A DNA stretch of 64,000 nt, taken from positions 1,302,001 through 1,366,000 of the forward strand of contig NZ_JARNTX010000001.1 in the NCBI RefSeq assembly GCF_029433095.1, in the 5' to 3' direction. The notes under the pieces were generated by a model. The model saw nothing but the letters and a program-made list of their open reading frames with translations. It searched no databases and was not told the DNA's origin. Of this stretch, positions 3,366-24,131 are shown piece by piece; the stretch's first letter is position 1; every line of letters begins with the position of its first letter. The position numbers and the translations under genes were made by a program. The DNA is from Hymenobacter sp. YC55. Lineage in GTDB: Bacteria > Bacteroidota > Bacteroidia > Cytophagales > Hymenobacteraceae.

Positions 3366-3499
3366 TAAAAAAACAGCCCTCTTTCTGATTCGCAAAGGTT
3401 TGAGTTATCTAATATCAGACAACGGTAACTTCTGGCTAGGCCACAGTTTAAGCGTACCGTGTCGATTTGCTTCCTTTCTTCACTTCAATTCCCACTAGT

Positions 3500-6469
3500 A
3501 TGAAGCACGGTTTATTACTACCTGCTATTCTGTTGTGCGCAGCCGCTCCGGCTTGGGCTCAGCAGACTCGGCAACTTTCAGGGCAAGTGCTGGACGCAGC
3601 CACCGGCGAAGGATTGGCCGGGGTGACGGTGCTGGTGAAAGGCACCACCAATGGCGCGTCCACCAACATGGACGGGCAGTTCACGCTAAGCGTACCCGCT
3701 ACGACCAGCGAGGTGCAGCTCACGATAAGCTACATCGGCTACGTCACCCAAACCGTAACGGCCAAAGACGAAGCCAACCTGAAAGTCAGATTGGCGTCGG
3801 ATACTAAGGCGCTGGACGAAGTAGTGGTAATTGGCTACGGGCAGGTGAAGAAGAGCGACGTAACGGGCGCTATTGTGTCGGTAAAAGAAGAGGACATTAA
3901 AAAGACCCCGGCGGCCAACGTAATGGAGTCGTTGCAGGGGCGCCTGCCCGGTGTAGACATCACGCGCAGCAGCGGTTCGGCCACATCGGGCGTCAACGTG
4001 ACGGTGCGCGGCAACCGTTCGCTCACGGCCAACAACGGCCCGCTGTTCATTGTGGATGGGGTGCAGTACAACTCTATTCAGGATATCAACCCCAACGATA
4101 TTCAGTCGATGGAGGTGTTGAAAGACGCCGCTTCCACGGCCGTTTACGGTTCGCGCGGCGCCAACGGCGTTATCATCGTTACCACGAAGCGCGGCTCTTC
4201 AGGCAAGCCACGGGTTACCATCAACTCTTACTACGGCCAGACCGACGTTGCGTACTACCCTAAGGTAAACAACGCCGAACAGTACGCGGCGCAAAAGCGG
4301 GAAGCCAACCGCACAACGGGCTTGTGGAACAGCGCGGCGGATGATCCTAAGATCTTCACGCCGTACGAGCTAGAGTCGATTGCCAACGGGGGTTCGACCG
4401 ACTGGATGAATTTGCTGCTCCGTAAAGGCGTGCAGCAGGAGCACCAAATCGGCCTGTCGGGCGGCTCCGACAAAACTAAGTTCTACACCTCGTTCGACTA
4501 TTTCAACGAGCAAGGGCTGTTCAAACTAGACAACCTCAACCGCTACTCCATTCGCTTTAACATCGATCAGGAGATCAACAAGAAAATCACTATTGGCCTG
4601 CAAAGCCAGCTCACATATTACAACCAGAGCACCCGGCGCGACCCCACCAACCAGGCCAATAAGATCAACCCGCTGCTCACGCCCTACGACGCGAACGGCA
4701 ACATTGCCATCTTCCCCAACAGTGGCAACTTTATCAACCCCATCATTGATGAGGTAAACGGCAACTACGAGAACAACGCCCGCACCACGCGCACCTTCAC
4801 GACGGGTTATGTTAGCTACCAGATTCTGCCGAGCCTGAACATTCGCTCCAACCTAGGCCTCACGCTGTCCAATGCCCGCACGGGTATCTACCAGGGTAGT
4901 AACACCTTGGACCGCAACGGCTCGGTGCCGCAATCGTCGTACGGTACCCAGTTTCTTACCAACTGGAGCTGGGAAAACATCATCAACTACAACAAGACGT
5001 TCGGCGACCATTCCCTCACGGCTACTGGCGTTACGTCGTTGCTCACGTTCAACACCGAGAATTCCAACGCCCAAGGCCGCAACCAGTTGCTGGCTTCGCA
5101 GCTTTACTACAACCTGGCCAACGCCAACCAGCAAATTGGTATCAACAGCGGCTACGAAGACAGCAAACTGATTTCGTTTACGGGCCGCGTGCAGTACGGC
5201 TATAAGGGCCGCTATTTGCTCACCCTCACAGGCCGCGGCGACGGTTCCTCGAAGCTAGCGGCGGGCAACAAATGGGCTTTCTTCCCGTCGGCTGCCGTGG
5301 CGTGGCGCGTCATCGATGAAGACTTTATGAAAGGGGTTAGCGCCATTTCCGACTTGAAGCTGCGCGTGAGCTATGGGCGGGCCGGCAACTACGACGTACC
5401 GGTGTATTCGTCGCAGTCGTTGCTGGCGCGTATTCCGTTTGCTTATGGCGAAACCAGTGCTGCGGGCTACACCTTTGCCAACCGCATCGGCAACCCGGAG
5501 CTAGGGTGGGAACTGTCGAACACCAAAAACATCGGTCTGGACTATGCTGTGCTCGACAACCGCATCACGGGCTCGGTTGACGTGTACGACACCGAAACCA
5601 GCGACCTGTTGCTCGACCGGTTCTTGCCGCTAAGCTCGGGCGTATCGGTTATCACGCAGAACATTGGCAAAACCCGCAACAAGGGCATCGAAGTCGGCCT
5701 GAATGGGCGCATCATCGACAACGAGAACTTCAAGTGGAACGCGGGTGCGACGTGGTTTCTCAACCGCGAAGAAATCGTGGACTTGGGCGGAGCCAACAGC
5801 GACATCTCCAATGGCTGGTTTATTGGCTCGCCTACTCGCGTGATCTACGATTACGAGAAAATCGGCATTTGGCAATTAGACGAAGCCGACGAGGCCAAAG
5901 CCTACGGGCAGAAGCCCGGTCAGATCAAGGTGCGCGACCTGAACGGCGACGGTCAGATTACGGCCAGCGCCGACCGCAAAGTGCTGGGCTGGCGCGTGCC
6001 CAAGTGGAACGGCAGCTTTAACAGCGACTTCAGCTACAAAGGCTTCGATTTGTCGTTCCAGTTCTTTGCCCGCATGGGCCAGATGTTCAACTACGAATAC
6101 AACAGCTATTTCGACCCGCAAGGCATCGAGAACAGCTCGCAGCAGAACTACTGGACGCCCGAAAATCCCTCAAACGACTACCCGCGGCCGGATGCGAGCT
6201 TGTCGAAAACCACGCAGCAAAACGCCCTGTATGGCAACACGCTGTACTACCGCGACGGCTCGTACGTGAAGTTGCGCGCCGCTACGCTTGGTTACAATAT
6301 TCCCCAATCGGTGTTGGAGAAGCTGCACATGTCGTCGTTGCGGGTGTATATACAAGGCAAGAACCTCGTGACGTGGAGCGACATCAAGGACTATGACCCG
6401 GAGCGTGGCGGGGCCATTACGGCGCCCATTCCGCGCGTGGTGTTAGCGGGAATCAACCTCGGTTTTTAA
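3500..6469 (+). CDS. SusC/RagA family TonB-linked outer membrane transporter
   Basis: A 989-residue outer membrane receptor that, with its SusD partner, takes up oligosaccharides using TonB energy. The start is ATG 3500, which gives a clean signal peptide (MKHGLLLPAILLCAAAPAWAQ); the frame is open 11 codons further upstream. A carboxypeptidase-D-like regulatory domain follows (about residues 22-105), then the DEVVVIGYG segment, the plug domain with LQGRLPGVDI and VLKDAASTAVYGSRGANGVIIVTTK (about 110-230), and a 22-strand barrel ending in a terminal Phe (GINLGF). It starts the pectin locus, 24 bp before susD. Pectin-derived oligosaccharide as substrate is inferred from the surrounding genes. 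Confidence 0.96.
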   Translation: MKHGLLLPAILLCAAAPAWAQQTRQLSGQVLDAATGEGLAGVTVLVKGTTNGASTNMDGQFTLSVPATTSEVQLTISYIGYVTQTVTAKDEANLKVRLASDTKALDEVVVIGYGQVKKSDVTGAIVSVKEEDIKKTPAANVMESLQGRLPGVDITRSSGSATSGVNVTVRGNRSLTANNGPLFIVDGVQYNSIQDINPNDIQSMEVLKDAASTAVYGSRGANGVIIVTTKRGSSGKPRVTINSYYGQTDVAYYPKVNNAEQYAAQKREANRTTGLWNSAADDPKIFTPYELESIANGGSTDWMNLLLRKGVQQEHQIGLSGGSDKTKFYTSFDYFNEQGLFKLDNLNRYSIRFNIDQEINKKITIGLQSQLTYYNQSTRRDPTNQANKINPLLTPYDANGNIAIFPNSGNFINPIIDEVNGNYENNARTTRTFTTGYVSYQILPSLNIRSNLGLTLSNARTGIYQGSNTLDRNGSVPQSSYGTQFLTNWSWENIINYNKTFGDHSLTATGVTSLLTFNTENSNAQGRNQLLASQLYYNLANANQQIGINSGYEDSKLISFTGRVQYGYKGRYLLTLTGRGDGSSKLAAGNKWAFFPSAAVAWRVIDEDFMKGVSAISDLKLRVSYGRAGNYDVPVYSSQSLLARIPFAYGETSAAGYTFANRIGNPELGWELSNTKNIGLDYAVLDNRITGSVDVYDTETSDLLLDRFLPLSSGVSVITQNIGKTRNKGIEVGLNGRIIDNENFKWNAGATWFLNREEIVDLGGANSDISNGWFIGSPTRVIYDYEKIGIWQLDEADEAKAYGQKPGQIKVRDLNGDGQITASADRKVLGWRVPKWNGSFNSDFSYKGFDLSFQFFARMGQMFNYEYNSYFDPQGIENSSQQNYWTPENPSNDYPRPDASLSKTTQQNALYGNTLYYRDGSYVKLRAATLGYNIPQSVLEKLHMSSLRVYIQGKNLVTWSDIKDYDPERGGAITAPIPRVVLAGINLGF

Positions 6470-6493: not shown

Positions 6494-8158
6494 ATGAAAT
6501 ACTCGAAATTTAAACTTGTGCTGGCGGCCGGGATGCTCACGCTTACGCTCCCCGCCTGCGAAAAGCAGCTAGAAGAATACAACCCCTCGGGCCTCACGGC
6601 CGAAAACGTATACACCACGCCGGCTGGTTTTGAAACGCTGGTTAACGCCGCCTACTCGTACAACCGCTGGTGGTACGGTAAGGAAGACGGCTACAGCATA
6701 TCCGAAATGGGCACCGACCTGTGGCAGCGCGGGGCCGGTGACGTAAACCCCGACCTGACCGATTATACCACGCTCCAAGGCAGCTCACGGGCGCTTGAAA
6801 GCTTGTGGGGCAAACTGTATGCGGCCGTCAACCTCTGCAACGCGGGCATCAACCGCATCGGGCAATCGGGCATGACGGATGCGCAGATGAAAACACGCGA
6901 AGGCGAACTGCGCTTCCTGCGGGCCTTCTACTACTGGCACATTGTGGAAACCTGGGGCGGCGTGCACTTCACCACCGAAGAAACGACCACCGTGCAAACC
7001 ACGGCCAACCGCACGCCCGTCGACACTTTCTACAACCAGATCTTCGAGGACCTGAACATTGCAGTAGCCAACCTGCCGACTACCACCACCGATTATGGCC
7101 GGGTAACAAAGCCTGCGGCCGAAGCTTTCCTGGCCAAAATGTATCTGACGCGCGGCCAGAACAAGGAGGCCGCCGACTTAGCCGAAAAAGTAATCAGCGG
7201 CTACAGCTTCACGCTGCAGAAAAGCTACGCCGATTTGTGGTCGATGACTAACTTGGAAAATAAGGAAGTTTTGTGGGCGGTCAACTACGCGAAAGAGCTG
7301 AGTTTGAACGACCGGGTAGATATAAACCTGTTCCCGGAGCCTTATGGGCACCCCCGCGGCGGCAACAACGGCCACTTGCTTTGGACGATGAAGTACGACG
7401 ACCAGCCCGGCATGACGCGCGACATAGCTAATGGCCGCCCCTTCAACCGCTACATGCCGTCGCTGTTCCTACTCAGGCTGTTCGACGAGACGAAGGATTC
7501 GCGCTACCTCGCCTCGTTCAAAACCGCCTGGATTGCTAACACGGCCGTGACCGGGGCCAAGCCCCTGGCCAAAGGCGATACTGCTATTCTGGCCACCAAA
7601 AAGGAAATTCCAACCAGCGTTGAAAACGCCAAGAACTACCGCACCTACGATTTAAGCAAGGTGTATAATCCCAACACGGGTGCGGTGGTCGGCGACCGGC
7701 TGCACTACGTGTGCTTACGTAAGTTCGACGACCCAACGCGTCCTACCATCGCTGAAGAGCAAAGCGCCCGCGACGCCTACATTATCCGCTTGGCCGACGT
7801 GTATTTGATGGCCGCTGAAGCTAACTTCAAGCTCGGCAACCTCCCAAAGGCTGTCACCCAAATCAACACGGTGCGGCGGCGGGCGGCCATCCCGGGCAAA
7901 GAGTCGCAGATGGAAATAGCGGCCTCTAATTTGAGCTTGGACTTCATTCTGGACGAGCGGGCGCGGGAACTAGCCGGCGAGCAGCTGCGCTGGTTTGACC
8001 TCAAGCGTACCGGTAAACTGGTATCACGGGTGAAAGCCAACAACCCCGAAGCGGGCGCTAGCATTCAAGATTACCACATGCTACGGCCCATTCCGCAGCG
8101 GCAATTAGATGCCATCCAAAACAGAGCGGAATTCACGCAGAACCAAGGATACAGATAA
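6494..8158 (+). CDS. SusD/RagB family surface lipoprotein
   Basis: A 554-residue surface-exposed glycan-binding lipoprotein, the lid of the SusC channel. The lipobox LPAC places the modified cysteine at residue 22. The N-terminal SusD-like part holds the family segments EGELRFLRAFYYWHIVETWGGV and the TPR-like helices (AEAFLAKMYLTRG), and the C-terminal RagB part ends with LDERARELAGEQLRWFDLKRTGKL and PIPQRQLDAIQNR, as in other members. It follows susC with a 24-bp gap and so is cotranscribed. A Rho-independent hairpin immediately follows (8169-8200). Ligand assignment to pectin fragments comes only from context. Confidence 0.96.
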   Translation: MKYSKFKLVLAAGMLTLTLPACEKQLEEYNPSGLTAENVYTTPAGFETLVNAAYSYNRWWYGKEDGYSISEMGTDLWQRGAGDVNPDLTDYTTLQGSSRALESLWGKLYAAVNLCNAGINRIGQSGMTDAQMKTREGELRFLRAFYYWHIVETWGGVHFTTEETTTVQTTANRTPVDTFYNQIFEDLNIAVANLPTTTTDYGRVTKPAAEAFLAKMYLTRGQNKEAADLAEKVISGYSFTLQKSYADLWSMTNLENKEVLWAVNYAKELSLNDRVDINLFPEPYGHPRGGNNGHLLWTMKYDDQPGMTRDIANGRPFNRYMPSLFLLRLFDETKDSRYLASFKTAWIANTAVTGAKPLAKGDTAILATKKEIPTSVENAKNYRTYDLSKVYNPNTGAVVGDRLHYVCLRKFDDPTRPTIAEEQSARDAYIIRLADVYLMAAEANFKLGNLPKAVTQINTVRRRAAIPGKESQMEIAASNLSLDFILDERARELAGEQLRWFDLKRTGKLVSRVKANNPEAGASIQDYHMLRPIPQRQLDAIQNRAEFTQNQGYR

Positions 8159-8210: not shown

Positions 8211-9890
8211 ATGAAACAACTCACCGTTTGCCTTTTCGCTCTCATTGCCAGCTCTACTCTCGCCTTTCGGCCCGCGGCCGCAAAGCCGGTAGCCAGTGCG
8301 TCTGCCGTGCCCGACCTGCCGAAAGTAGTTGAGCCCTCGTTTAGCAAAGACACCTTCAACATTGTAAAGTATGGCGCGGTTGCCGACGGCCAGACCCTAA
8401 ACACCGAAGCGTTTCGCAAGGCCATTGAGGCATGCAGCCAGAAAGGTGGCGTGGTGTTGGTGCCGCGCGGCTTGTGGCTCACAGGCCCCATCGAGCTGAA
8501 AAACAACGTGAACCTGCACGTGAAGCGCGGCGCACTGGTGCAGTTCAGCAACAAGCTCTCGGATTTCAAGCTGATAAAAACCAACTGGGAAGGCGTGGAC
8601 GCCGTGCGCAACCAGTCGCCGATTTCGGGCTACGATCTGCAAAACATTGCCATCACCGGGGAAGGTACTTTTGATGGGGCTGGCGATGCGTGGCGCATGG
8701 TGAAGAAAGAAAAACTCAGCGAAGGCCAGTGGCAGAAGCTAGTGAAGTCGGGCGGCGTGCTCGATGCGAAAGGCACCACGTGGTACCCCACGGCGCAGTC
8801 GTTGAAGGGCTCCACTACTTCAAAGCCCGGCATCCTGCAGCCCGGCAAGGACGTTGCTGATTTCGCCGATATCAAAGACTTTCTGCGGCCCAATATGCTG
8901 AGTTTGCAGCGCTGCAAGAAGGTACTGCTCGAAGACTTCACCATCCAAAACTCACCCGCCTGGACCATTCACCCGCTGCTTTGCGAAGACATCACGCTCC
9001 GCAACGTAACAGCCCGCAACCCCTGGTACGGCCAGAATACCGATGCTCTTGACCTGGAATCGTGCCGCAACGGCATTGTAGACAACTGCACCTTCGACGT
9101 GGGCGATGATGGAATCTGCATCAAGTCGGGCCGCGACGAGCAGGGTCGCAAGCGCGGCGTACCCACCGAGAACTTCATCATTCGCGACACGAAAGTCTAC
9201 CACGCCCACGGTGGCTTCGTGATTGGCAGTGAAATGTCGGGCGGGGCGCGCAACTTATACGTGAGCAACTGCACGTTTATCGGTACCGACGTGGGCCTGC
9301 GTTTCAAGACCGCGCGGGGCCGCGGTGGTGTGGTCGAGAACATCTTCGTAGATGGCGTTGACATGACCGACATTGCCGGCGAAGCCATCCTGTTCGACAT
9401 GTACTACGCCGCCAAAGACCCGGTGCAAGTGAACGGCGAAGCGTTTTCCATTCCCGAAATCAAAGCCGAGCCACTAGGGGAGGGCACGCCCGTGTTCCGC
9501 AACTTCCGCATCAAAAACGTGACGTGCAAAGGCGCGGCTACGGGCATCTTGGTGCGCGGGCTGCCGGAGATGAATGTGAAGGATATCGAAATTGAAAACG
9601 CGGTGCTGGAAAGCAAAAGAGGGTTGGTGTGCCAGGAAGGTAGTGGCATTAGCTTCAAAAATGTGGCGTTGTTTTCCACCGAAACCAAGCCCGTGCTGGA
9701 AGTGCAGAACAGCCAGAACATCACCCTCGACAACATCCGGTATGCTGCCGGCGCCGACCTGCTGCTGCGCGTCACCGGCGACCGAAGCAAAGCGGTGAAG
9801 CTTGTTAACACCAATACTAAGTCAGCTAAAAAGGACGTGGAAGTCGGCCAGAAAGTAGCCAAGAAGGTGGTCACGATTTCGCAACGGTAG
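8211..9890 (+). CDS. Glycoside hydrolase family 28 (polygalacturonase-like)
   Basis: A secreted, 559-residue right-handed beta-helix enzyme of the pectinase family that hydrolyses galacturonan or rhamnogalacturonan linkages by inversion. A signal peptide covers about residues 1-24. The start of the fold shows FNIVKYGAVADGQTLNTEAF. The GH28 catalytic motifs occur in order: NTD (276-278), DD (299-300), His-Gly-Gly in AHGGFVIGSE (333-335) and RFK in LRFKTARGRGG. Length is above that of fungal enzymes because of an insert at about 155-225. It is the first enzyme after SusCD and followed by its own terminator. Exo- versus endo-action cannot be told from the sequence. Confidence 0.93.
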   Translation: MKQLTVCLFALIASSTLAFRPAAAKPVASASAVPDLPKVVEPSFSKDTFNIVKYGAVADGQTLNTEAFRKAIEACSQKGGVVLVPRGLWLTGPIELKNNVNLHVKRGALVQFSNKLSDFKLIKTNWEGVDAVRNQSPISGYDLQNIAITGEGTFDGAGDAWRMVKKEKLSEGQWQKLVKSGGVLDAKGTTWYPTAQSLKGSTTSKPGILQPGKDVADFADIKDFLRPNMLSLQRCKKVLLEDFTIQNSPAWTIHPLLCEDITLRNVTARNPWYGQNTDALDLESCRNGIVDNCTFDVGDDGICIKSGRDEQGRKRGVPTENFIIRDTKVYHAHGGFVIGSEMSGGARNLYVSNCTFIGTDVGLRFKTARGRGGVVENIFVDGVDMTDIAGEAILFDMYYAAKDPVQVNGEAFSIPEIKAEPLGEGTPVFRNFRIKNVTCKGAATGILVRGLPEMNVKDIEIENAVLESKRGLVCQEGSGISFKNVALFSTETKPVLEVQNSQNITLDNIRYAAGADLLLRVTGDRSKAVKLVNTNTKSAKKDVEVGQKVAKKVVTISQR

Positions 9891-10185: not shown

Positions 10186-12132
10186 ATGTCCTTTCGCCGC
10201 TTCCTTTCCGCTGGCCTGCTGCTGGCCTCCCTTACCACCAACGCGCAAACGCCAGCCAAGCCGGCCGCTGGTCCGGCTATGTCGCAACGCATGGCGGATG
10301 CCTTCATTAGCTGGCACCCTGATTCCATTCTGATTGGCACCCGTAAAACCGCCCGTTGGGACTACGAACAAGGCCTGATGATGAAAGCCTTGGAGCGCGT
10401 ATGGGAGCGTACCGGCGACGCCCGCTACTTCACGTACATCCAAAAAGACCTCGACCAGTTTGTGTTGCCCGACGGCACTATTCGCACCTACAAGCTGGAA
10501 GACTACAACCTCGATAACCTCACTACTGGCCACGCACTGTTGCTCTTAAGCCAGCTGTCGTTGGGCAGCCAGGCAACGCAGCAGAAGTACGTGAAAGCCG
10601 CTCAGCTCCTGCGCAAGCAGCTTGACGGCCAGCCGCGCACCCAAGCGGGTGGCTTCTGGCACAAGAAAATCTACCCCAACCAAATGTGGCTCGATGGCCT
10701 CTACATGGCCGAGCCTTTCTACGCCGAGTACAGCAAGCTATTCAATCAGCCCGCTGGTTTCGACGACGTGGCCAAGCAGTTTGCTCTCATCGAGAAAAAC
10801 CTGGTGGACCCCAAAACCGGCCTGCTTTACCACGGCTACGACGAAAGCAAGGAGCAGAAATGGGCCAACAAAACCACTGGCCAGTCGCCCAACTTCTGGG
10901 ACCGGGGCATGGGCTGGTACGCCATGGCCTTAGTAGATGTGCTGGATTATTTCCCCGCCAACCATCCGCAACGGGCGCAGCTTATCAAGGATGTGCAACG
11001 CTTGGCTCCGGTGCTAGCTAAGTACCAAGACCCCAAAACCGGCACTTGGTCGTTGGTAGTAGACCAAGCCACCCGCAAAGGCAACTACGCCGAAGCTTCG
11101 GGCAGCAGCATGTTTGTGTACGCGTTGGCGAAAGGCGTGCGGATGGGCTACCTAGACAACAAGTACGCGGCCGTTGCCAAGAAAGGCTACGACGGGCTGC
11201 TGAAAACCTTCGTGGCTACGGAGGGCAATGCGCTGGCCTTCAATGGGACAGTAAGCGTGGGGGGCCTCGGCGGCAACCCCTACCGCGACGGTAGCTTCGA
11301 GTACTACCTAAGTGAGCCACTCCGCAAAAACGACCTGAAAGGTGTGGGTCCCTTCATCTTAGCCAGCGTGGAAATGGAAGTTGCGGCGGAAAGCGCCTTA
11401 GGCAAAGGCAAGACGGTGGCTGTCGACAACTACTTCAATCACGAAACTCGCAAAAACAACCTCAGCGGGCAAACCGAATCCTGGCACTACACCTGGGAAG
11501 AGCGCACCCACGGCGGCTTCTACTTGTGGGGCAACCAGTTCCGCGAATTAGGCGCCAAAACCGTAACCGTGCCCACTGCTCCCACGGCGGCTTCTCTGAA
11601 AGGCGTGAACGTGTACATCATCGTCGATCCGGACAGCAAGAAAGAGTCGCCGCAGCCTAACTTCGTGAAGCCCGCCGATGTGCAGGCCGTGACGGATTGG
11701 GTGAAAGCCGGTGGCACGCTCGTACTGATGGCCAATGACACGTCGAACTGCGAGATTCCACGCTTCAACACCCTAGCCAAAGCGTTTGGAATCACTTTCA
11801 CCAACACCAGCATGAACATGGTGAAAGGCGACCAATTCGAGCAAGGCTTGGTAAAATTCCCGGCGGGCAATGCCGTTTTCAAAACCGCCAAAACGGCCTA
11901 CGTCAAAGAACTATCGGTGCTGGACGTGAAGAGCCCGGCCACGCCGCTGGTTAGCACCGGTAGCAGCGTTATCATGGCCACTGCCAAATTGGGCAAAGGA
12001 ACCGTGTTTGCCATCGGCGACCCATGGCTCTACAACGAGTACACCGACGGCCGCAAAATCCCGGACACCTTCGACAACTTCGAGGCCGGTAAAGACCTGG
12101 CGACCTGGCTGCTGCAACAGTCTGGGCGTTAA
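10186..12132 (+). CDS. GH88/GH105 unsaturated rhamnogalacturonyl hydrolase with extra C-terminal domain
   Basis: A 648-residue exported enzyme. A signal peptide covers residues 1-20. Residues about 30-390 form the (alpha/alpha)6 barrel of YteR/YesR-like GH105 enzymes, which remove the 4,5-unsaturated uronic acid left by pectate and rhamnogalacturonan lyases. Family motifs seen are RWDYEQG, YNLDNLTTGH with Asp110, QMWLDGLYMAEPF with Asp170 (the pair matching YteR Asp88/Asp143 in spacing) and FWDRGMGWY. Residues about 472-648 add a Rossmann-like domain (VYIIVDPDS, VKAGGTLVLMANDT, GKGTVFAIGDPWLYNEY) of the DUF4350/glutamine-amidotransferase-like kind, role unknown. Its product feeds the KdgF/KduI/KduD branch encoded downstream. 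Confidence 0.93.
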   Translation: MSFRRFLSAGLLLASLTTNAQTPAKPAAGPAMSQRMADAFISWHPDSILIGTRKTARWDYEQGLMMKALERVWERTGDARYFTYIQKDLDQFVLPDGTIRTYKLEDYNLDNLTTGHALLLLSQLSLGSQATQQKYVKAAQLLRKQLDGQPRTQAGGFWHKKIYPNQMWLDGLYMAEPFYAEYSKLFNQPAGFDDVAKQFALIEKNLVDPKTGLLYHGYDESKEQKWANKTTGQSPNFWDRGMGWYAMALVDVLDYFPANHPQRAQLIKDVQRLAPVLAKYQDPKTGTWSLVVDQATRKGNYAEASGSSMFVYALAKGVRMGYLDNKYAAVAKKGYDGLLKTFVATEGNALAFNGTVSVGGLGGNPYRDGSFEYYLSEPLRKNDLKGVGPFILASVEMEVAAESALGKGKTVAVDNYFNHETRKNNLSGQTESWHYTWEERTHGGFYLWGNQFRELGAKTVTVPTAPTAASLKGVNVYIIVDPDSKKESPQPNFVKPADVQAVTDWVKAGGTLVLMANDTSNCEIPRFNTLAKAFGITFTNTSMNMVKGDQFEQGLVKFPAGNAVFKTAKTAYVKELSVLDVKSPATPLVSTGSSVIMATAKLGKGTVFAIGDPWLYNEYTDGRKIPDTFDNFEAGKDLATWLLQQSGR

Positions 12133-12437: not shown

Positions 12438-13490
12438 CTACAGGGTGCGGGCGGCGCCAAGAGGTTCGGCGTGTTCAACAAAGTTTGTGGAGTCGCGGAC
12501 GACAAGCTCGGTTGGAATCTTGACGGTGTCGACTGGCTTCGCGCGTTGCTTGTTCTCGATTAAATCGATTAGTCTTTCGGCGGCTACTTGCCCAATTTCT
12601 TGCGCTGGCTGCACCACGGTGCTCAAAGATGGAGACAGCAGATCGGCCACGTTCAAGTTGGTGAAGCCGATAAGGGATACGTCTTCCGGAATGGCAAGCT
12701 GGCGCTGGTGCAATGCTTTGAGGCAGCCAACGGCCAGTCGGTCGGAGGCCGTGAAGAAAGCATCGGGAATGGGGTCGAGGGCCATGAGCTCGTCTACCAT
12801 CGGGCCTACTTCGTCGGGGCCGAAGGTGCCGTAGCGGATCAGGTTTTCGTCGAATTCCAGACCATGCTTTTCGAGGGCGGCGCGGTAGCCCGCCAGGCGC
12901 TCCTGCGTGATGCTCAGCCACGGCTGAATGGTAAGGTGCGCAATCCGGCGCCGGCCCGACAAAATGAGGTGTTCGGTAGCGGCAAAAGCTCCGCCGAAGT
13001 TGTCGGCTACTACTTGCGTCACGTTTAGCTCCGCCGATACCCGGTCGAACAATACCACCGGCACATTCTTGTCGATTACGTCGCGCAGGTGCGCCACATC
13101 CGACGTTTCGCTGGAAAGAGAAATTAGCAGGCCATCCACCTTGCGCGACATAGCCTGGTTGACGTTGGCCATTTCCCGCTCGTACGATTCTTGGCTTTGG
13201 AAGATGATAACGTGGTAGCCACGGTTATACGCAATAGCCTCGATGCCATTGATGGCTTGCGAGAAGAAGTAGTTGGCAATTTGGGGTACAATAACGCCAA
13301 TAGCACGACTAGAACTGCCTTTGAGGCTGAGCGCAATAGGGTTGGGTCGGTAGTTGAGCCGCTCCGCGCATTCCATTACCAGCCGCTTCGTTTCCGGGTT
13401 GATTTCGTAGCTGCCCCGCAACGCGCGGGACACGGTAGAAGTGGAAAGGTTTAGCTCGCGGGCAATGTCTTTTATCGTGAATGTTTCCAA
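12438..13490 (-). CDS. LacI family transcriptional regulator
   Basis: A 350-residue regulator. The N-terminal helix-turn-helix (residues 4-24, TIKDIARELNLSTSTVSRAL) and hinge are followed by the periplasmic-binding-protein-like effector domain (about 62-345), with the expected GVIVPQIANYFFS and DAFFTASDRLAVG segments. Such proteins bind palindromic operators with a central CG and respond to a sugar or its metabolite. It is divergent from kduD; the intervening 307 bp contain an operator candidate (13647-13670), almost repeated before susC. This placement suggests that it controls the pectin genes and perhaps itself, with a uronate or KDG-like effector; both points are inferred. Confidence 0.95.
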   Translation of the reverse strand: METFTIKDIARELNLSTSTVSRALRGSYEINPETKRLVMECAERLNYRPNPIALSLKGSSSRAIGVIVPQIANYFFSQAINGIEAIAYNRGYHVIIFQSQESYEREMANVNQAMSRKVDGLLISLSSETSDVAHLRDVIDKNVPVVLFDRVSAELNVTQVVADNFGGAFAATEHLILSGRRRIAHLTIQPWLSITQERLAGYRAALEKHGLEFDENLIRYGTFGPDEVGPMVDELMALDPIPDAFFTASDRLAVGCLKALHQRQLAIPEDVSLIGFTNLNVADLLSPSLSTVVQPAQEIGQVAAERLIDLIENKQRAKPVDTVKIPTELVVRDSTNFVEHAEPLGAARTL

Positions 13491-13646: not shown

Positions 13647-13670
13647 GGCAACGTTCCCGATAACGTTTGC
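13647..13670. promoter_or_regulatory. Candidate LacI-family operator upstream of kduD
   Basis: 24 bp made of GGCAACGTT, CCCGA and TAACGTTTGC, agreeing at 21 of 24 positions with 3341-3364 upstream of susC. It holds two CG-centred half-operators, AACGTT and TAACGTTTGC; the latter matches the right half of PurR/LacI-type sites. It lies between the divergent lacI-type and kduD genes, about 130 bp from the kduD start. Confidence 0.7.
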
Positions 13671-13740
13671 GCGAATAAACATTGTGCTATTCTTCCTTTT
13701 GGGGTTTACAACTTTTAATCTTATCCTAACAGATGTGCTG

Positions 13741-13797: not shown

Positions 13798-14568
13798 ATG
13801 GCTCTAGCTGCTTCCTTTGATTTGACTGGCAAACGCGCACTGGTAACGGGCTGCACCCGGGGTATCGGCCAGGCGATGGCCATCGGATTGGCCGAAGCCG
13901 GCGCCGATATTATCGGAGTGTCGGCCTCTTTAGCGCTGGAAGGCAGTGAAACCGAACAAGCGGTGCGGGCCCTTGGCCGCGACTTCAAAGCCTATAAAGC
14001 CGACTTCGGCGACCGGGCGCAGGTGGATGCTTTCATAACGCAAGTGCAAGCCGACTTCCCGCATATCGACATCCTGATCAACAACGCCGGCACCATTAAG
14101 CGGGCGCCGGCCGCCGAGCATTCCGATGAGTTGTGGGATGAAGTACTACGCATCAACCTCGACGCGCCGTTCCGTTTGGCGCGCGCCATCGGCGGCCAAA
14201 TGCTGCGGCAGGGCTCCGGCAAAATCGTCTTCACCGCTTCGCTGCTCACCTTCCAGGGCGGTATCAACGTGCCCGGCTATGCCGCCAGCAAAGGCGCCAT
14301 TGGCTCCGTTGTGAAAGCCCTAGCCAACGAGTGGGCCGGCCGCGGGGTCAACGTCAATGCCATTGCGCCCGGCTACATTGCCACCGACAACACCGAGGCC
14401 CTGCGCAACGACCCCGACCGGTCGGCTAGCATCTTGGGCCGTATCCCGGCTGGCCGTTGGGGCACCCCCGACGACTTTAAAGGCCCTACCGTCTTCCTAT
14501 CCTCGTCGGCGGCCGACTATGTGCACGGCACCATCCTCACCGTTGATGGTGGCTGGATGGGCCGCTAA
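13798..14568 (+). CDS. kduD: 2-dehydro-3-deoxy-D-gluconate 5-dehydrogenase (KduD)
   Basis: A 256-residue cytoplasmic short-chain dehydrogenase that reduces 2,5-diketo-3-deoxygluconate to 2-keto-3-deoxygluconate (KDG), the last step for unsaturated uronate from pectin. The NAD(P) loop TGCTRGIG (17-24), NNAG (95-98) and catalytic Ser148, Tyr161, Lys165 (YAASK) are visible, and the C-terminus ILTVDGGWMGR is the one typical of KduD. Length matches the E. coli enzyme. It opens the run kduD-kduI-cupin-CE8/PL10-uxaB on plus and is preceded by a LacI-type operator candidate and a possible promoter. Assignment as KduD over other SDRs rests on the C-terminus and on the kduI neighbour. Confidence 0.93.
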   Translation: MALAASFDLTGKRALVTGCTRGIGQAMAIGLAEAGADIIGVSASLALEGSETEQAVRALGRDFKAYKADFGDRAQVDAFITQVQADFPHIDILINNAGTIKRAPAAEHSDELWDEVLRINLDAPFRLARAIGGQMLRQGSGKIVFTASLLTFQGGINVPGYAASKGAIGSVVKALANEWAGRGVNVNAIAPGYIATDNTEALRNDPDRSASILGRIPAGRWGTPDDFKGPTVFLSSSAADYVHGTILTVDGGWMGR

Positions 14569-14675: not shown

Positions 14676-15506
14676 ATGACCCAACGCTATGCCATCGGCC
14701 CGCGCGAAACAGCGGCAATGACCACCGACGAACTACGGGAGAATTTCCTGCTGGAGAACCTGTTTGTGGCGGGCACCATCGAGTTGGTCTATACGCATTA
14801 CGACCGCATGATTGTGGGCGGAGCGGTGCCCACCACTGAGCCGCTGCCGCTGCCCAACCCCGAAAACCTGAAGGCCGAGTTTTTCCTGCAGCGCCGGGAG
14901 TTGGGCATCCTCAATATCGGCGCCGCGGGCACCGTCACCGTCGATGGCACGGTGCACGAGCTTGGCAACCAGGATTGCCTGTACGTAGGCAAAGACGCGC
15001 GCGAGGTAACTTTTGCCTCTGCTGATGCCAACCAGCCCGCGCAGTACTACTTGCTTTCGGCTCCGGCTCACCACGCTTATCCCACGCGGCGCATGACGCA
15101 GGCGGAGGCTACACCGGTGCAGCTCGGCAGTCAGGAAACGGCCAATGCGCGCACTATCTATAAATACATCTACCTCGAAGGCCTCCAGAGCTGCCAGCTG
15201 GTAATGGGTCTGACGCAACTGCAGCCCGGCTCGGTGTGGAACACCATGCCTAGCCACGTGCACGACCGGCGCATGGAGGTCTACGTTTACTTCGACTTGC
15301 CCGAAAACCAGCGGGTGCTGCACATGATGGGCCAGCCGCAGCAGACCCGGCCTTTGTGGGTAAACAACCGCCAAGCGGTGCTTTCGCCCCCGTGGTCGAT
15401 TCATACGGGCTGCGGCACCAGCAACTACACCTTCATCTGGGGCATGGCCGGCGAGAACCTCGAGTACACCGACATGGACCCCGTTACCATCGACCAACTC
15501 CGCTAA
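14676..15506 (+). CDS. kduI: 5-dehydro-4-deoxy-D-glucuronate isomerase (KduI)
   Basis: A 276-residue cupin-type zinc isomerase that turns 5-keto-4-deoxyuronate (DKI) into 2,5-diketo-3-deoxygluconate, the substrate of KduD. The zinc-binding stretch is seen near residues 194-205 (SHVHDRRMEVYVYFDLP, with two His and one Glu), with a later His in WSIHTGCGTSNYTFIWGMAGEN. The N-terminus MTQRYAIGPRETAAMTTDELRENFL is also characteristic of the family, and the length equals that of E. coli KduI. It lies 107 bp after kduD and 6 bp before the KdgF-like cupin gene. Confidence 0.96.
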   Translation: MTQRYAIGPRETAAMTTDELRENFLLENLFVAGTIELVYTHYDRMIVGGAVPTTEPLPLPNPENLKAEFFLQRRELGILNIGAAGTVTVDGTVHELGNQDCLYVGKDAREVTFASADANQPAQYYLLSAPAHHAYPTRRMTQAEATPVQLGSQETANARTIYKYIYLEGLQSCQLVMGLTQLQPGSVWNTMPSHVHDRRMEVYVYFDLPENQRVLHMMGQPQQTRPLWVNNRQAVLSPPWSIHTGCGTSNYTFIWGMAGENLEYTDMDPVTIDQLR

Positions 15507-15872: not shown

Positions 15873-18011
15873 ATGCGACTTCAGCTAACCATAGTAAGAA
15901 CACTACTGCTCCTGCTGACGGGAATAGGGGGGATGGGGATCTTTTCAGCCCGGGCCCAGCAGGTGATAGTGGCGGCGGATGGTTCGGGAAATTTCCGGAC
16001 CATCCAGGCCGCGCTCAACAGTTTGCCCAACCAAGCCACCAAACCGCGCACAGTGTACATCAAGAATGGCACTTACCGCGAAAAGGTATTCTTGGATGGC
16101 AAGCAGCAGATTGTTCTGAAAGGGCAGAGTGAAAAGGGCGTAATTCTGACGTATGCTCAGGCCCGCGACGAGTGGCGCTGCAACCCGGAAGGCGGCGCCG
16201 ATGATTGGGGCGTAGCTACGCTCAACATGCGCAACTCCCCCGACATTACGCTCGAAAACCTAACGGTGCTCAACACCTATGGCTTCGACGCCAAAGGCGA
16301 AGTAACCATCGACTGCCCTACCGACCCAACCAAAAAGAAAACCATCAGCAAAACCGGCCACCAGATGGCGTTGCGTACCATGCCCGGTACCACCCGCCTG
16401 ATCGTGAAGCACTGCACCTTCCGCGCCTTAGGCGGTGACACCGTCAGCCCCTGGGACGTAGATGCGGGCCTGTACTACTTCCAAGACTGCACCATGGAAG
16501 GCGGCGTAGATTTCTATTGCCCCCGCGGGTGGGCCTATGCTGAAAATTGCCGCTTCATTTGCCACAATCCCAATGCCGCCATCTGGCACGACGGCTCCGG
16601 CAACAAGGACTCGAAGACGGTGCTGAAAAACTGCGTTTTCGAGGGCGACGACAACTTCAAGCTAGGCCGCTTCCACCGCGAGGCGCAGTTCTATTTGCTG
16701 GATTGCAAATTTGCCAAGAACATGGCCGACGCCGATATCTACTGGGCTACGTCGGGGCCAGGAGCCAAGCAGTGGGGGCGGCGCGTGTACTACGCCAACT
16801 GCCACCGCGAAGGCGGCGACTATGCGTGGCACCAAGACAACCTACGCACGGCCGAAGGCGCCCCCAAAGCCTCAAGCATTACGGCCGATTGGACCTATGG
16901 TGGGCGTTGGTACCCCGTATCGGGCAAGAAGGCAACCGTAGCACTGGCGCCATCCAACCCCGCCAATACCAATTCAGTTATGCCCACGGCTGCCAATCTG
17001 CGCGCCGACCAGGCCGACAGCGTGGCCGAAAAGATGCTGGTGTACCAGCGTAGCGTGGGTGGCTGGCCCAAGGCCGTGAAAATTGCGTCGGTAGAAGAGA
17101 AGGTGGATTACACCAAACCCCTGTCGGCGGCCAAGCGGGCCAGTACCCTAGCCGATGCCGGCCGCAACGACGCCACCATTGATAACAACGCCACTACCCG
17201 CGAAATCACCTACTTGCTGCAAGCCTTCAAGCGCACCAACAACCCCGCCTACCGGCAGGGTGCCGAGCGGGGCATTCAGTACCTGCTGAAGATGCAGTAC
17301 CCCAACGGCGGCTTTCCGCAGTACTACCCCGATGCCAGCAGCTACCGCCACCTCATCACCTACAACGACAACGCCATGATTCGGGTGTTGGACTTGCTGC
17401 GGAGCGTGGCCAAGCAGCAAGGCGAGTTTGCCCTCGTTAATCCGGATTTGGTGGGACCAGCCAAGCAAGCCGTGGACCGAGGCGTGGATTGCATTGTGAA
17501 AACGCAGTACCTGCAAAAAGGCAAACGCACGGCTTGGTGCGCGCAGTACGACGAGAAAACGCTGTTGCCGGCCAAAGCCCGGGCGTTCGAGTTGGCTTCA
17601 CTGAGCGGCTTCGAGTCGGCACGGATTGTAGAGTTTTTGATGGAAATCGAGGACCCTTCGCTGGAAGTGAAGCAAGCTATTGTCAGCGCCGTGGCGTGGT
17701 TCGAGCAAGTGAAAATGCCGAACATGGCCATGAAAGAAATCAAAGACCCAGCCCAACCCACTGGCCGCGACCGGGTACTTGTGTCCGAGCCAGGAGCCAC
17801 GCTGTGGGCTCGGTTTTATGAACTTGACACCAACCGTCCCATCTATGTGGGGCGCGACAGCAAAGTGCATTACGCCTTGGCTGAAATAGAAAATGAGCGG
17901 CGGGCGGGCTACCTCTACGCGGGTACTTGGCCAGCAAAACTGCTCACGAAAACCTACCCGCAGTGGCAGCAGAAATATGCGGCCACTACCACCCCGCAGG
18001 CAAGTAAATAA
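15873..18011 (+). CDS. Pectin methylesterase (CE8) - pectate lyase (PL10) fusion
   Basis: A 712-residue exported two-enzyme protein. A signal peptide covers about residues 1-29. Residues 30-350 are a CE8 pectinesterase beta-helix: Gln164 (GHQMALR), Asp189 (GGDTVSP), Asp213 (VDFYCPRG) and Arg266 (LGRFHRE) match the catalytic positions, but the usual QDTLY is changed to GDTVS and LGRPW to LGRFH. Residues about 377-705 are an (alpha/alpha)3 PL10 pectate lyase, with NDATIDNNATTREI, GGFPQYYP and the KARAFELASLSGFES stretch. One enzyme removes methyl esters, the other cleaves the exposed polygalacturonate to unsaturated products fed to GH105/KdgF/KduI. It lies between the kdgF-like gene and uxaB, 12-18 bp spacings. 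Confidence 0.92.
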   Translation: MRLQLTIVRTLLLLLTGIGGMGIFSARAQQVIVAADGSGNFRTIQAALNSLPNQATKPRTVYIKNGTYREKVFLDGKQQIVLKGQSEKGVILTYAQARDEWRCNPEGGADDWGVATLNMRNSPDITLENLTVLNTYGFDAKGEVTIDCPTDPTKKKTISKTGHQMALRTMPGTTRLIVKHCTFRALGGDTVSPWDVDAGLYYFQDCTMEGGVDFYCPRGWAYAENCRFICHNPNAAIWHDGSGNKDSKTVLKNCVFEGDDNFKLGRFHREAQFYLLDCKFAKNMADADIYWATSGPGAKQWGRRVYYANCHREGGDYAWHQDNLRTAEGAPKASSITADWTYGGRWYPVSGKKATVALAPSNPANTNSVMPTAANLRADQADSVAEKMLVYQRSVGGWPKAVKIASVEEKVDYTKPLSAAKRASTLADAGRNDATIDNNATTREITYLLQAFKRTNNPAYRQGAERGIQYLLKMQYPNGGFPQYYPDASSYRHLITYNDNAMIRVLDLLRSVAKQQGEFALVNPDLVGPAKQAVDRGVDCIVKTQYLQKGKRTAWCAQYDEKTLLPAKARAFELASLSGFESARIVEFLMEIEDPSLEVKQAIVSAVAWFEQVKMPNMAMKEIKDPAQPTGRDRVLVSEPGATLWARFYELDTNRPIYVGRDSKVHYALAEIENERRAGYLYAGTWPAKLLTKTYPQWQQKYAATTTPQASK

Positions 18012-18023
18012 CTAGTTTCCGCT

Positions 18024-19559
18024 ATGCCCCACCTTTCGAAATCCCTCATTCTTTCTGCCCCTTCCACAGTGGCATCCCTCCCCACCGCCGCGCATTTCGA
18101 GCTGCCCGAAAAGGTGCTTCAATTCGGTACCGGCGTGCTGTTGCGCGGTCTGCCGGACTACTTCATCGAGAAAGCCAACCGCCAAGGCATCTTCAACGGC
18201 CGCATTGTGGTGGTGAAGAGCACCGACGGCGGCGACATTACGGCCTTTGAGCGCCAGGATGGCCTGTACACGCTGGTGGTCCGCGGCATCGAAGACGGCC
18301 AAACGGTGGAAGAGAACATGGTTTGTTCGGCCATCAGCCGGGTGCTCTCGGCCAAAAGCCAATGGGACGAAATACTTGCCTGCGCCGCTAACCCCGAACT
18401 GACGGTTGTTATTTCCAACACCACCGAAGTAGGTATTCAACTGGTGGCTGATGATGTGACGCAGACGCCACCCGTGTCGTTTCCGGGCAAGCTGCTGGCT
18501 TTCCTGTATGCCCGCTACCAAGCCTTCAACGGCGACAAAACCAAGGGCCTCGTGATTGTGCCTACGGAACTTGTGGTCGATAACGGCACCAAACTCGAAG
18601 GCATCCTGCTCGAGCAAGCGCACCGCAACAACCTGCCCGCCGAGTTTATCGATTGGCTGGAAACGGCCAACTCCGTTTGCAACTCGCTGGTGGACCGCAT
18701 CGTGCCCGGCCGGCCCGACGTGACCATGCAGGACAGCTTGGCCGAGCAGCTTGGCTACGACGACGAGCTGCTGACCATGTCGGAGGTGTACACGCTGTGG
18801 GCCATTGAAGGCGACGAGCACGTGAAAGAGGTACTGTCTTTCTCTCAGGTAGACAAAGGTGTGGTCATCCAGCCCGACATCAACCAGTTCCGGGAGTTGA
18901 AGCTGCGTCTGCTCAATGGCACGCACACGCTCAGCTGCGCGCTGGCTATCCTCTGCGGCTACACAACGGTGCGCGAGGCCATGGAAGACCAGCAGTTCGC
19001 CAGTTTCGTCCAGAACCTGATGCTCACTGATTTGCTGCCCGGCATTCCTTACGCTATTGATGAGCAAGTAGGCCAGCGTTTCGGCATGCAGGTCCTCGAC
19101 CGGTTCCGAAACCCGTACATCGAGCACCGCTGGTTGAGCATCAGCCTCAACTACACCACCAAGCAGCAAATGCGCAACGTGCCCACGTTGCTGCACTACT
19201 CGCGCCAAGTTGGCGGCGTGCCGCACTATGTGGCATTGGGTTTTGCGGCTTACTTGCTGTTCATGCGCGGCACCCGCCAGGAAGCAAGCGGCTGGCACGG
19301 TGAAATACACGGCACGGAGTACCTGATTCAGGACGACAAAGCCGGCTATTTCGCCGACCTCTGGAACCGGCTTGGTCCAACTGAACTAACGCGCATGGTG
19401 CTGCACAACAGCGCGTTGTGGGGCCACGATTTGCTGACCGTGCCCGGCTTTGCCGACGAGGTGAGCAACTACTTGGAACAGCTTATCGAGCAAGGTGGAA
19501 AAGCCACGCTACATAAGCTGCTGAACCAGACGGTAGACCAGCAAGCCGCCGTGAAATGA
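18024..19559 (+). CDS. uxaB: Tagaturonate reductase (altronate oxidoreductase, UxaB)
   Basis: A 511-residue NAD-dependent polyol dehydrogenase of the mannitol dehydrogenase family. It reduces D-tagaturonate to D-altronate in the galacturonate pathway. The N-terminal Rossmann domain starts at VLQFGTGVLLRGLPDYFIEKAN, and the stretches GRIVVVKST and VVISNTTEVGI are usual in UxaB; the C-terminal helical domain has LKLRLLNGTHTLSCALAILCGY with the Lys/Asn/His motif of the family. It lies 12 bp after the CE8-PL10 gene and ends 143 bp before uxaA, consistent with the pathway order. Confidence 0.95.
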   Translation: MPHLSKSLILSAPSTVASLPTAAHFELPEKVLQFGTGVLLRGLPDYFIEKANRQGIFNGRIVVVKSTDGGDITAFERQDGLYTLVVRGIEDGQTVEENMVCSAISRVLSAKSQWDEILACAANPELTVVISNTTEVGIQLVADDVTQTPPVSFPGKLLAFLYARYQAFNGDKTKGLVIVPTELVVDNGTKLEGILLEQAHRNNLPAEFIDWLETANSVCNSLVDRIVPGRPDVTMQDSLAEQLGYDDELLTMSEVYTLWAIEGDEHVKEVLSFSQVDKGVVIQPDINQFRELKLRLLNGTHTLSCALAILCGYTTVREAMEDQQFASFVQNLMLTDLLPGIPYAIDEQVGQRFGMQVLDRFRNPYIEHRWLSISLNYTTKQQMRNVPTLLHYSRQVGGVPHYVALGFAAYLLFMRGTRQEASGWHGEIHGTEYLIQDDKAGYFADLWNRLGPTELTRMVLHNSALWGHDLLTVPGFADEVSNYLEQLIEQGGKATLHKLLNQTVDQQAAVK

Positions 19560-19702: not shown

Positions 19703-21355
19703 ATGAAGCATTTAGTAGCTAAAATCCACCCGGACGATAACGTGCTGGTCGCTCTGCAGGACTTACCTGTTGGCACGCCCGTCACGTACGATGGCGTTAC
19801 TGTCACGACCACCGAACGGATACCAGCCAAGCACAAATTGGCTATGCAATTTTTGGCCCCCGGCGACCCGGTGCACATGTACGGGGTGCTGGTTGGCAAG
19901 GCGGCGCAAGCCATTGGTGTTGGAGGCCTTCTTACCACCGGCAACATCCGCCACGCCACCGACAGCTACGGCGAAAGCCAGGAGCGCCGGTCGGCCTGGG
20001 TTGCCCCCGACGTATCGAAGTGGGAGGACCGTACTTTCATGGGCTTCCACCGCGCCGATGGCAGCGTGGGCACCGCCAACTACTGGCTGGTGATTCCGCT
20101 GGTATTCTGCGAAAACCGCAACATTCAGGTACTCGAAGAAGCCCTGGTAAATGACTTGGGCTATGCCCGCCGCAAATCGTATCAGCCCCAAACGCAGGAG
20201 CTGATTTCATTGATGCAAGCCGGCAAATCGGTAGAAGAAATCCTGGCCACCGACTTGCACAGCGCTGAAGGCAAGCATCAGAAGCCCAAGCTGTTCCCGA
20301 ACATTGACGGTATTCGGTTCCTGAGCCACGAAGGCGGCTGCGGTGGTATTCGGCAGGATGCGCAGAGCCTGTGCGGCTTGCTGGCAGGCTATATCACTCA
20401 CCCCAACGTGGCGGGTGCTACGGTGCTGAGCCTTGGCTGCCAGAACGCTCAGGTAAGCATGCTGCAAGACGAAATCAACAAGCGTAGCCCCAACTTCAGC
20501 AAGCCGCTATTCATCCTGGAGCAGCAGAAGCTTGGTACCGAGGAAACGCTGATCAGCACGGCGTTGCGCCAAACCTTTGCGGGCTTGATGCAAGCCAACC
20601 AAGTGCAGCGCCAGCCCGCACCGCTCAGCAAGCTGTGCATCGGTCTGGAGTGCGGTGGCTCCGACGGCTTCTCTGGCATTTCCGCCAACCCCGCCGTAGG
20701 ACACGTGTCGGATTTGATGGTGGCTTTGGGCGGCTCGGTTATTCTGGCCGAATTCCCCGAGCTGTGCGGCGTAGAGCAAGAGTTAGTTGACCGCAGCGTA
20801 GACCACGCTACGGCTGAGCGGTTCAGCTCCCTGATGAAAGCCTACGGCGACAGCGCCGTGGCAGTAGGCTCCGGGTTCGACATGAACCCTTCCCCCGGCA
20901 ACATCCGCGACGGGTTGATTACCGACGCCATGAAGTCGGCGGGTGCGGCGCGCAAAGGCGGTAGCTCCCCGGTGGTAGCCGTGCTCGATTACCCAGAACT
21001 CGTGACCAAGCCTGGCTTGAACCTGCTCTGCACTCCCGGCAACGACGTGGAATCGACCACGGCTGAAGTAGGGTCGGGGGCCAACGTGGTACTCTTCACC
21101 ACCGGCCTCGGAACGCCCACCGGCAACCCCATTGCGCCCGTTGTCAAGATTTCCAGCAACACGGCCCTGGCGAAGCGGATGCCCGACATCATCGACGTAA
21201 ACACCGGCACCGTTATCGATGGCGAGGAAACCATCGAGCAAGCCGGGGAGCGGATTCTGGATTATGTGATTCGAGTAGCCAGCGGCGAAGAAGTAGCCGC
21301 CGTGCGCCACGGTCAAACTGACTTTATTCCCTGGAAACGCGGCGTCTCGCTGTAA
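19703..21355 (+). CDS. uxaA: Altronate dehydratase (UxaA)
   Basis: A 550-residue cytoplasmic dehydratase that turns D-altronate into KDG. The N-terminal SAF-like domain (about residues 1-95) begins MKHLVAKIHPDDNVLVALQDL; the catalytic domain follows from GFHRADGSVGTANYWLVIP, with SHEGGCGGIRQDAQSLCGLLAGYI, LGLECGGSDGFSGISANPAVG and LLCTPGNDVESTTAEVGSGANVVLFTTGLGTPTGNPIAPVVKI. The conserved cysteines of the metal site are in place. Both domains are in one chain, as in E. coli UxaA. A hairpin terminator candidate follows at 21381. Confidence 0.97.
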   Translation: MKHLVAKIHPDDNVLVALQDLPVGTPVTYDGVTVTTTERIPAKHKLAMQFLAPGDPVHMYGVLVGKAAQAIGVGGLLTTGNIRHATDSYGESQERRSAWVAPDVSKWEDRTFMGFHRADGSVGTANYWLVIPLVFCENRNIQVLEEALVNDLGYARRKSYQPQTQELISLMQAGKSVEEILATDLHSAEGKHQKPKLFPNIDGIRFLSHEGGCGGIRQDAQSLCGLLAGYITHPNVAGATVLSLGCQNAQVSMLQDEINKRSPNFSKPLFILEQQKLGTEETLISTALRQTFAGLMQANQVQRQPAPLSKLCIGLECGGSDGFSGISANPAVGHVSDLMVALGGSVILAEFPELCGVEQELVDRSVDHATAERFSSLMKAYGDSAVAVGSGFDMNPSPGNIRDGLITDAMKSAGAARKGGSSPVVAVLDYPELVTKPGLNLLCTPGNDVESTTAEVGSGANVVLFTTGLGTPTGNPIAPVVKISSNTALAKRMPDIIDVNTGTVIDGEETIEQAGERILDYVIRVASGEEVAAVRHGQTDFIPWKRGVSL

Positions 21356-23081: not shown

Positions 23082-23097
23082 CGAAGCACTGCTTCGT
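23082..23097. repeat. Palindrome before kdgK
   Basis: ACGAAGCA-C-TGCTTCGT spans 23081-23097, with a second small dyad GCGAAG/CTTCGC about 50 bp upstream. The core CGAAGC-CTGCTTC recurs at 31259-31272. It ends 16 bp before the kdgK start and could hide the ribosome site or be a dispersed repeat. Confidence 0.4.
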
Positions 23098-23113
23098 GGT
23101 ATATAGCAACAGA

Positions 23114-24121: not shown

Positions 24122-24131
24122 AAAACAGCAA

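Follow-up and report, generated by a model that had tools for sequence, protein, structure and literature searches.

The 24-mer that stands before both susC and kduD in Hymenobacter sp. YC55 is well supported as the predicted shared operator of one LacI-type regulator. We think it fairly probable that it is the operator of P0001, a putative pectin regulator encoded beside kduD, and that P0001 co-regulates pectin uptake and catabolism, most likely as an activator. By computation we defined a site that is conserved, is linked to the regulator gene, precedes a coherent set of targets and is polar, with a near-fixed spacing to a promoter-like element. The window, that is, the whole stretch of 64,000 nucleotides analysed (C1:1302001-1366000), belongs to a genome of 7.59 Mb in 18 contigs, which was searched throughout, and contains the following operators and genes.

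3341..3364, + strand: predicted susC-promoter operator, 24 bp, GGCAACGTTGCCGGTAACGATTGC, dyad-centre CpG 3352/3353 (genome pattern search)
3500..6469, + strand: susC, TonB-dependent outer-membrane receptor (Plug, CarbopepD_reg_2)
6494..8158, + strand: susD (SusD_RagB)
8211..9890, + strand: GH28, polygalacturonase-type (Glyco_hydro_28)
10186..12132, + strand: unsaturated glucuronyl/rhamnogalacturonyl hydrolase (Pfam Glyco_hydro_88; GH105-type is our reading)
12438..13490, - strand: LacI-family regulator P0001, 350 aa, TTG start as listed (Pfam LacI, PF00356, 3.9e-13; Peripla_BP_3, PF13377, 1.7e-36)
13647..13670, + strand: predicted kduD-promoter operator, 24 bp, GGCAACGTTCCCGATAACGTTTGC, dyad-centre CpG 13658/13659 (genome pattern search)
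13798..14568, + strand: kduD (TIGR01832, 339.1 bits, cut-off 338.85)
14676..15506, + strand: kduI (NF002091, 441 bits, cut-off 250)
15873..18011, + strand: pectinesterase-pectate lyase fusion (PF01095 and PF09492)
18024..19559, + strand: uxaB, tagaturonate reductase (NF002969, above cut-off)
19703..21355, + strand: uxaA-like altronate/galactarate dehydratase, name inferred (TIGR03248, 267 bits, cut-off of 731 not reached)
21552..23000, + strand: uxaC, uronate isomerase (NF002794, above cut-off)
23096..24803, + strand: kdgK-like kinase and kdgA-like aldolase, names inferred (best NCBIfam matches below cut-offs)
24879..26237, + strand: MFS hexuronate-type transporter, exuT name inferred (TIGR00893, below cut-off)

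P0001 combines an N-terminal LacI helix-turn-helix with a periplasmic-binding-type sensor domain, the arrangement that defines the LacI/GalR family; CcpA and PurR are among its PDB matches, and Pfam detected these LacI-type domains and no IclR domains. By LacI protein, the closest named relative is Hymenobacter telluris (93% identity).

An earlier note on this DNA had claimed that the two 24-mers agree at 21 of 24 positions and that both are intergenic. Recounting gave 3/24 differing positions, and both places proved to lie outside the annotated genes. The note had further described two CG-centred half-operators in each copy, of which the CG centring stands while the two half-sites do not, as each 24-mer is one imperfect 24-bp dyad on a CpG, with further CpGs 6 bp on either side of the central one. 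Such a pair of 24-mers would be expected by chance about 0.01 times, a rough estimate that takes uniform bases and 7 kb of intergenic DNA. The bare CGN10CG spacing was discarded as uninformative evidence, as the window contains 476 matches where 388 would be expected.

The genome-wide pattern search that the earlier note had proposed was carried out with GGCAACGTTSCCGRTAACGWTTGC at up to 3 mismatches and returned five places (six rows, one palindrome matching on both strands), against none for the reversed pattern. Four of the five sites precede pectin genes and one precedes a SusC/SusD pair with unknown substrate. The window sites are found before susC-susD-GH28-glucuronyl hydrolase and at lacI/kduD; the perfect palindrome at C14:273675 separates the genes of a GDSL esterase and two pectinesterases from a GH43 gene; the site at C11:513483 stands before the gene of a pectate-lyase-like secreted protein with weak Pfam support, whose likely start is downstream of the site; and that at C11:649355 is in front of the SusC/SusD pair. 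For pectate-lyase-like genes, the Pfam match at L003 (E 2.9e-4) is below the gathering score, and the gene at L198 has no Pfam match. Occurrence at random places unrelated to sugar genes, named in the note as speaking against a common operator, is thus not seen for the strong sites. Weak core matches (AACGTTNCCGNYAACG, 1 mismatch) were rejected as sites, the reversed control giving 5 + 11 against 9 + 8. Among eight of them inspected besides C11:513483, six fall in or beside genes without an evident link and the other two have a LacI paralogue or a SusC gene next to them; C1:1591816 and C1:2814195 are outside the inspected set. A relaxed palindromic pattern with 2 mismatches was likewise abandoned (controls 22/22, against 19/19); its 0-mismatch class comprises the five sites and one different palindrome at C1:750652.

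Orthologous upstream regions, whose comparison had also been advised, single out the same sequence. In alignments of 18 lacI-kduD intergenic regions, all with kduD as the divergent neighbour, the best 24-column window is exactly the 24-mer at 13647-13670, and conservation amounts to 95.4% within it versus 52.3% elsewhere. On the lacI side, a second block at 13535-13546 of the window (TTGCACTTTA, read toward lacI, upstream of its start) is conserved in most of the 18 relatives and is possibly part of the lacI promoter.

The site also follows the regulator from genome to genome. In 100 family genomes, a sample from a larger family, relatives of the LacI protein (E <= 1e-90) occur in 35, of which 31 reach at least 70% identity and four, at 52-53%, were scored as lacking the orthologue. 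Sites with at most 2 mismatches were present in 37 of the 100 genomes, compared with one match in total for the reversed control. At least two sites were found in 31 of the 32 genomes with the LacI orthologue (>=70% identity) and in none of the 68 without it (Fisher p ~5e-25), 6 of which hold a single site each; one genome, G090, has the orthologue and no site at <=2 mismatches. In G016 the orthologue is spread over several frames (C1:5083259-5084192; main pieces 81-86% identical), reflecting frameshifts or assembly errors, and six operator sites are kept; if this genome is scored as lacking the orthologue, the counts become 30/31 versus 1/69. The search for weaker or broken orthologues covered four genomes (G016, G041, G034 and G003), so that others among the 100 may hide one.

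Immediately upstream of lacI, a site with at most 3 mismatches is seen in 25 of 30 family loci (absent from L076-L079 and L082). With a matrix built from Hymenobacteraceae sites, the 320 bp in front of lacI proved to contain a site in 74 of the 80 named records (80 of 90 relatives kept), which span Hymenobacter, Spirosoma, Dyadobacter, Runella, Emticicia, Flectobacillus, Olivibacter, Saprospiraceae MAGs and others; the six loci without it are L158, L177, L178, L188, L189 and L192, and 100 column-permuted matrices found no site upstream of lacI in these records. The site stays with lacI while the divergent neighbour varies (kduD, uxaB or a susC-like gene), and within the 10 kb fetched, lineages keep uxa genes, kdu genes or both sets beside lacI. 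The proposal that one LacI-type regulator would serve both pectin uptake and catabolism is therefore supported by the footprint, by the co-occurrence and by the named records.

The genes next to the sites were surveyed at 91 distinct sites, comprising one locus per genome, the YC55 sites other than lacI/kduD and, from nine genomes, 68 of 75 sites (six of the seven omitted adjoin lacI). They have 142 flanking ORFs of at least 160 aa, of which 140 were scanned (the other two are alternative starts of genes already included), and families were tallied as the best 25 of 46 for 54 ORFs and the best 25 of 70 for 86. Among these 25 commonest families are SusC-type receptors, LacI, pectate lyases, pectinesterases, GDSL esterases, GH28, KduD-type dehydrogenases, CBM77 and secretion-tail proteins, together with DUF1275, pseudouridine synthase and catalase, which have no evident pectin link.

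The sites are polar, which was unexpected and, like the near-constant distance to a promoter-like element, had not been remarked on in the earlier note. Those in the window are accompanied by the following elements.

3365..3373, + strand: A-rich polar flank, susC side, ATAAAAAAA (consensus match 6/9, opposite side 2/9)
3410..3417, + strand: predicted -7 element, susC, TAATATCA (+46 from operator end)
13671..13679, + strand: A-rich polar flank, kduD side, GCGAATAAA (consensus match 8/9, opposite side 1/9)
13716..13723, + strand: predicted -7 element, kduD, TAATCTTA (+46 from operator end; cf. TAnnTTTG)

Across 216 distinct sites (matrix score >=26, identical 224-bp contexts merged), the A-rich flank, called at >=6/9 matches to [GA]C[AG]AATAAA with a chance of about 1% per side, is present on one side only of 178, on both sides of one and on neither side of 37, including the own-genome C14 site and the 4 Olivibacter sites; 179 sites could be oriented. 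Among the 91 surveyed sites, 25 without a clear flank were set aside, and the 66 flanked ones comprise 42 that face the sole panel pectin gene, 4 that face away from it, 4 with panel genes on both sides and 16 with none. Three of the four away-facing sites belong to paired operators, with a secreted-looking protein outside the panel on the other side. The named records contain 60 distinct sites preceding lacI; in 57 of them the flank is directed away from this gene, 3 have no flank, and none has one directed toward lacI.

An exact promoter search with TANNTTTG was given up after just 2 matches, and a -7-like element was therefore sought in columns anchored on the operator. Counting positions from the end of the operator, 27 sites have a TAANNTTA-like element at +46 and 14 have it at +47. 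Of the 83 non-redundant sites, 47 have it within +44..+48 and 2 on the opposite side, compared with maxima of 10 in shuffles and 13 in rotations; of all 179 oriented sites, 102 have it. No 5-of-6 match is present there in 36/83 and 77/179, respectively. As non-redundancy was judged by ungapped identity, some of these promoters may share descent, and the flank as well as the element was first noticed at loci of Hymenobacteraceae and defined after part of the same data had been viewed. In the YC55 genome, TAA stands at exactly +46 in all four flanked sites and, on the GH43 side, in the unflanked C14 site. Beyond Hymenobacteraceae, 35 of 55 flanked sites have TAA at +46/+47, versus 2 of 55 on the opposite side. 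All 18 Dyadobacter sites carry TTTG at +22 and TAA at +46, with none of them, and neither of 2 Emticicia sites, reaching the 5-of-6 threshold for the full element; in Runella, TTTG is at +22 in 4 of 6 sites and TAAACTTG at +47. TTG at +23 occurs in only 18% of sites, and the distance to the first start codon past the site is wide (sd 79 bp, n = 65). The +22 and +46/+47 elements fit the primary promoter of Bacteroides, given in PMC7366714 as -33 TTTG and -7 TAnnTTTG. The one-sided flank and the fixed -7-like element would hence place the operator upstream of the predicted promoter, with no overlap and its centre at about -69.

The central CG is invariant in the 83 non-redundant sites and the motif is near-symmetric, matching the even palindromes of the LacI/GalR family; a dyad on a central CpG is described for most LacI-family motifs (PMC4052901). 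The length of 16-22 bp that this source gives for LacI/GalR operators is exceeded, since 24 bp are conserved here in addition to the one-sided 9-bp flank.

Taken with the A-rich tract that extends toward the -33 region, the position near -69 and the near-fixed spacing would most simply make the P0001 dimer an activator, and the fixed place just upstream of predicted promoters suggests a regulator that switches genes on, not off. P0001 would bind the 24-mer before susC-susD-GH28-glucuronyl hydrolase for uptake, and that before the genes from kduD to the hexuronate transporter, same-strand genes assumed to form one operon, for catabolism. Bound in the presence of a uronate intermediate, the dimer would act in a class I-like manner, perhaps with the C-terminal domain of the RNA polymerase alpha subunit on the A-tract, a contact proposed by comparison with CRP. 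The effector may be 2-keto-3-deoxygluconate, because retention of uxa and kdu genes beside lacI varies and this intermediate is common to both branches. Binding, the sign of regulation, the effector, the alpha contact and the start sites are what we infer from the arrangement of the sites. More tentatively, we surmise a dedicated, ligand-dependent class I-type LacI-family activator of pectin use in the Cytophagales, working through a polar module of ~77 bp (24-bp operator, A-rich contact site of the alpha-CTD type, spacer, and -33/-7 elements of the Bacteroidota primary sigma factor), possibly with feed-forward to rhamnose use.

The main rival of the activator model is conventional repression through the same regulator and operator, with release by a uronate and either promoters elsewhere or repression exerted from upstream. 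We hold this to be unlikely, albeit worth serious consideration. Most LacI-family proteins repress, 72% of the LacI-family regulators studied in PMC4052901 are autoregulated, and the operator also lies ~156 bp in front of lacI; however, the polarity and the near-constant -7-like element at +46/+47 put the operator upstream of the predicted promoter and not over it. A repressor site would be expected over or downstream of the promoter, and in about half of the non-redundant sites the predicted promoter elements lie downstream of the operator at near-fixed spacing. Activation from upstream of -35 by LacI-type proteins is described for CcpA and predicted for Bifidobacterium AraQ and MalR1 in PMC6882875, with sites 14 bp and 15-35 bp upstream of -35, respectively, compared with ~21-22 bp here; AraQ and MalR1 have no single fixed distance and act on central carbon genes, whereas the present sites show near-fixed spacing, an A-rich tract and a pectin regulon. 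The same source reports that predicted activated genes did not change significantly in an AraQ mutant, which counts against the activator reading.

Improbable, in our estimate, is that the operator belongs to another regulator travelling with pectin clusters, a LacI paralogue or a member of another family, with lacI being merely a target. The genome does contain 14 LacI-type matches, and a related palindrome (C1:2248066) accompanies one paralogue. Against this, that paralogue is the only one of 13 paralogue matches with a near-matrix upstream site (22.7; next best 8.3; 450 bp examined), and the site follows the P0001-type lacI in 74/80 records despite the changing divergent neighbour. Chance similarity or a functionless repeat has next to no probability, as common as the bare CGN10CG spacing is in the window, given zero reversed-pattern matches, coherent targets, the footprint in 18 loci, the 31/32 versus 0/68 co-occurrence and the 74/80 records.

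With activation by P0001 as the preferred reading, some known systems may be compared. Dickeya KdgR is an IclR-family repressor with a uronate-responsive pectin regulon; P0001 would likewise be a uronate-responsive pectin regulator, but is of the LacI family. Bacteroides KdgR (BT0487), UxaR (BT0824) and UxuR (BT1434) are also LacI-family regulators of uronate catabolism, predicted by comparative genomics for galacturonate/glucuronate use (PMC3878776, PMC4052901); the motif here is 24 bp long and polar. According to PMC3878776, rhamnogalacturonan/pectin loci of Bacteroides are under HTCS control, whereas here the operator is also found before susC and secreted pectinases. The same paper describes ManR and AraR of Bacteroides as single regulators over both SusC/SusD uptake and cytoplasmic catabolism, similar to the present case, although they are of the GntR and NrtR families and serve mannose and arabinose. 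Speaking against our reading, though from a different system, the flavobacterial pectin PUL of PMC5306329 is reported with susC-susD not significantly induced by pectin. PMC4052901 covers the Bacteroidetes by one Bacteroides group, and in titles and abstracts, with subscription journals and RegPrecise outside the scope, we found no description of a pectin regulon of this LacI type.

In the literature found, little is described about polysaccharide-use regulators beyond the gut genus Bacteroides. For the pectin regulon of Hymenobacter, Spirosoma, Dyadobacter, Runella and related bacteria, the present analysis offers a precise and portable predicted operator/regulator pair, and the operator pattern enables pectin genes outside clusters to be found. 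It also makes it possible to test directly, in Bacteroidota, the assumption that a LacI-type protein is a repressor, and the constant module might be used in designing inducible promoters for these bacteria.

The regulon may extend to rhamnose. In five genomes, G016 (L224), G062 (L106), G076 (L216), G080 (L090) and G092 (L092), the operator precedes a GntR-type gene; the GntR domain was seen in 3 flanking ORFs of one Pfam tally and in the G076 copy, and the L216 protein, the one copy tested, has a LacI-type sensor domain. In the two neighbourhoods tested, G016 and G076, the GntR gene is accompanied by a bifunctional rhamnulose-phosphate aldolase (above cut-off) and by L-rhamnose isomerase (partial ORFs, below cut-off). 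The arrangement suggests that the amount of a rhamnose regulator is in turn adjusted by the pectin regulator; such feed-forward, if true, would give one switch for both rhamnogalacturonan sugars.

Elsewhere in the window, a Gfo/Idh/MocA-type oxidoreductase gene lies at 28170-29525; similar genes bear the operator in G011, G078 and G034, and the window copy showed no operator core upstream at up to 3 mismatches.

Three further palindromes were noted in the YC55 genome. At L286 (C1:2248066-2248089), GAAACCGTTTCCGGTAACGGTTTC lies between a uxuA-like gene, accompanied in our reading by a GH67-like gene and a dehydrogenase, and a LacI paralogue, and probably marks a sister glucuronate regulon with a related operator. 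At L283 (C1:750652-750675), the perfect 24-bp palindrome GGTATCGTTTTCGAAAACGATACC lies between a sodium-solute-symporter-like gene and a secreted-looking ORF. Neither of these two has the A-rich flank or a good +46 element. At L284 (C1:1522079-1522102), the related palindrome GCAAACGTTTTCGATGTCGTTTGC precedes a SusC-like gene; the flank is absent and TACCTTTT stands at +46 on the SusC side, perhaps pointing to a sister regulator with the same geometry.

Paired operators 114-147 bp apart, at spacings close by eye to whole helical turns, occur between divergent genes at L091, L194, L089, L110, L234 and L237, and at L091 and L194 both operators carry a flank of their own that faces outward; DNA looping is a conceivable reading. 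In G076 (C1:865874-865909), G088 (C25:153108-153143) and G072 (C24:194707-194742), operators overlap at a 12-bp offset, forming three tandem 12-bp units.
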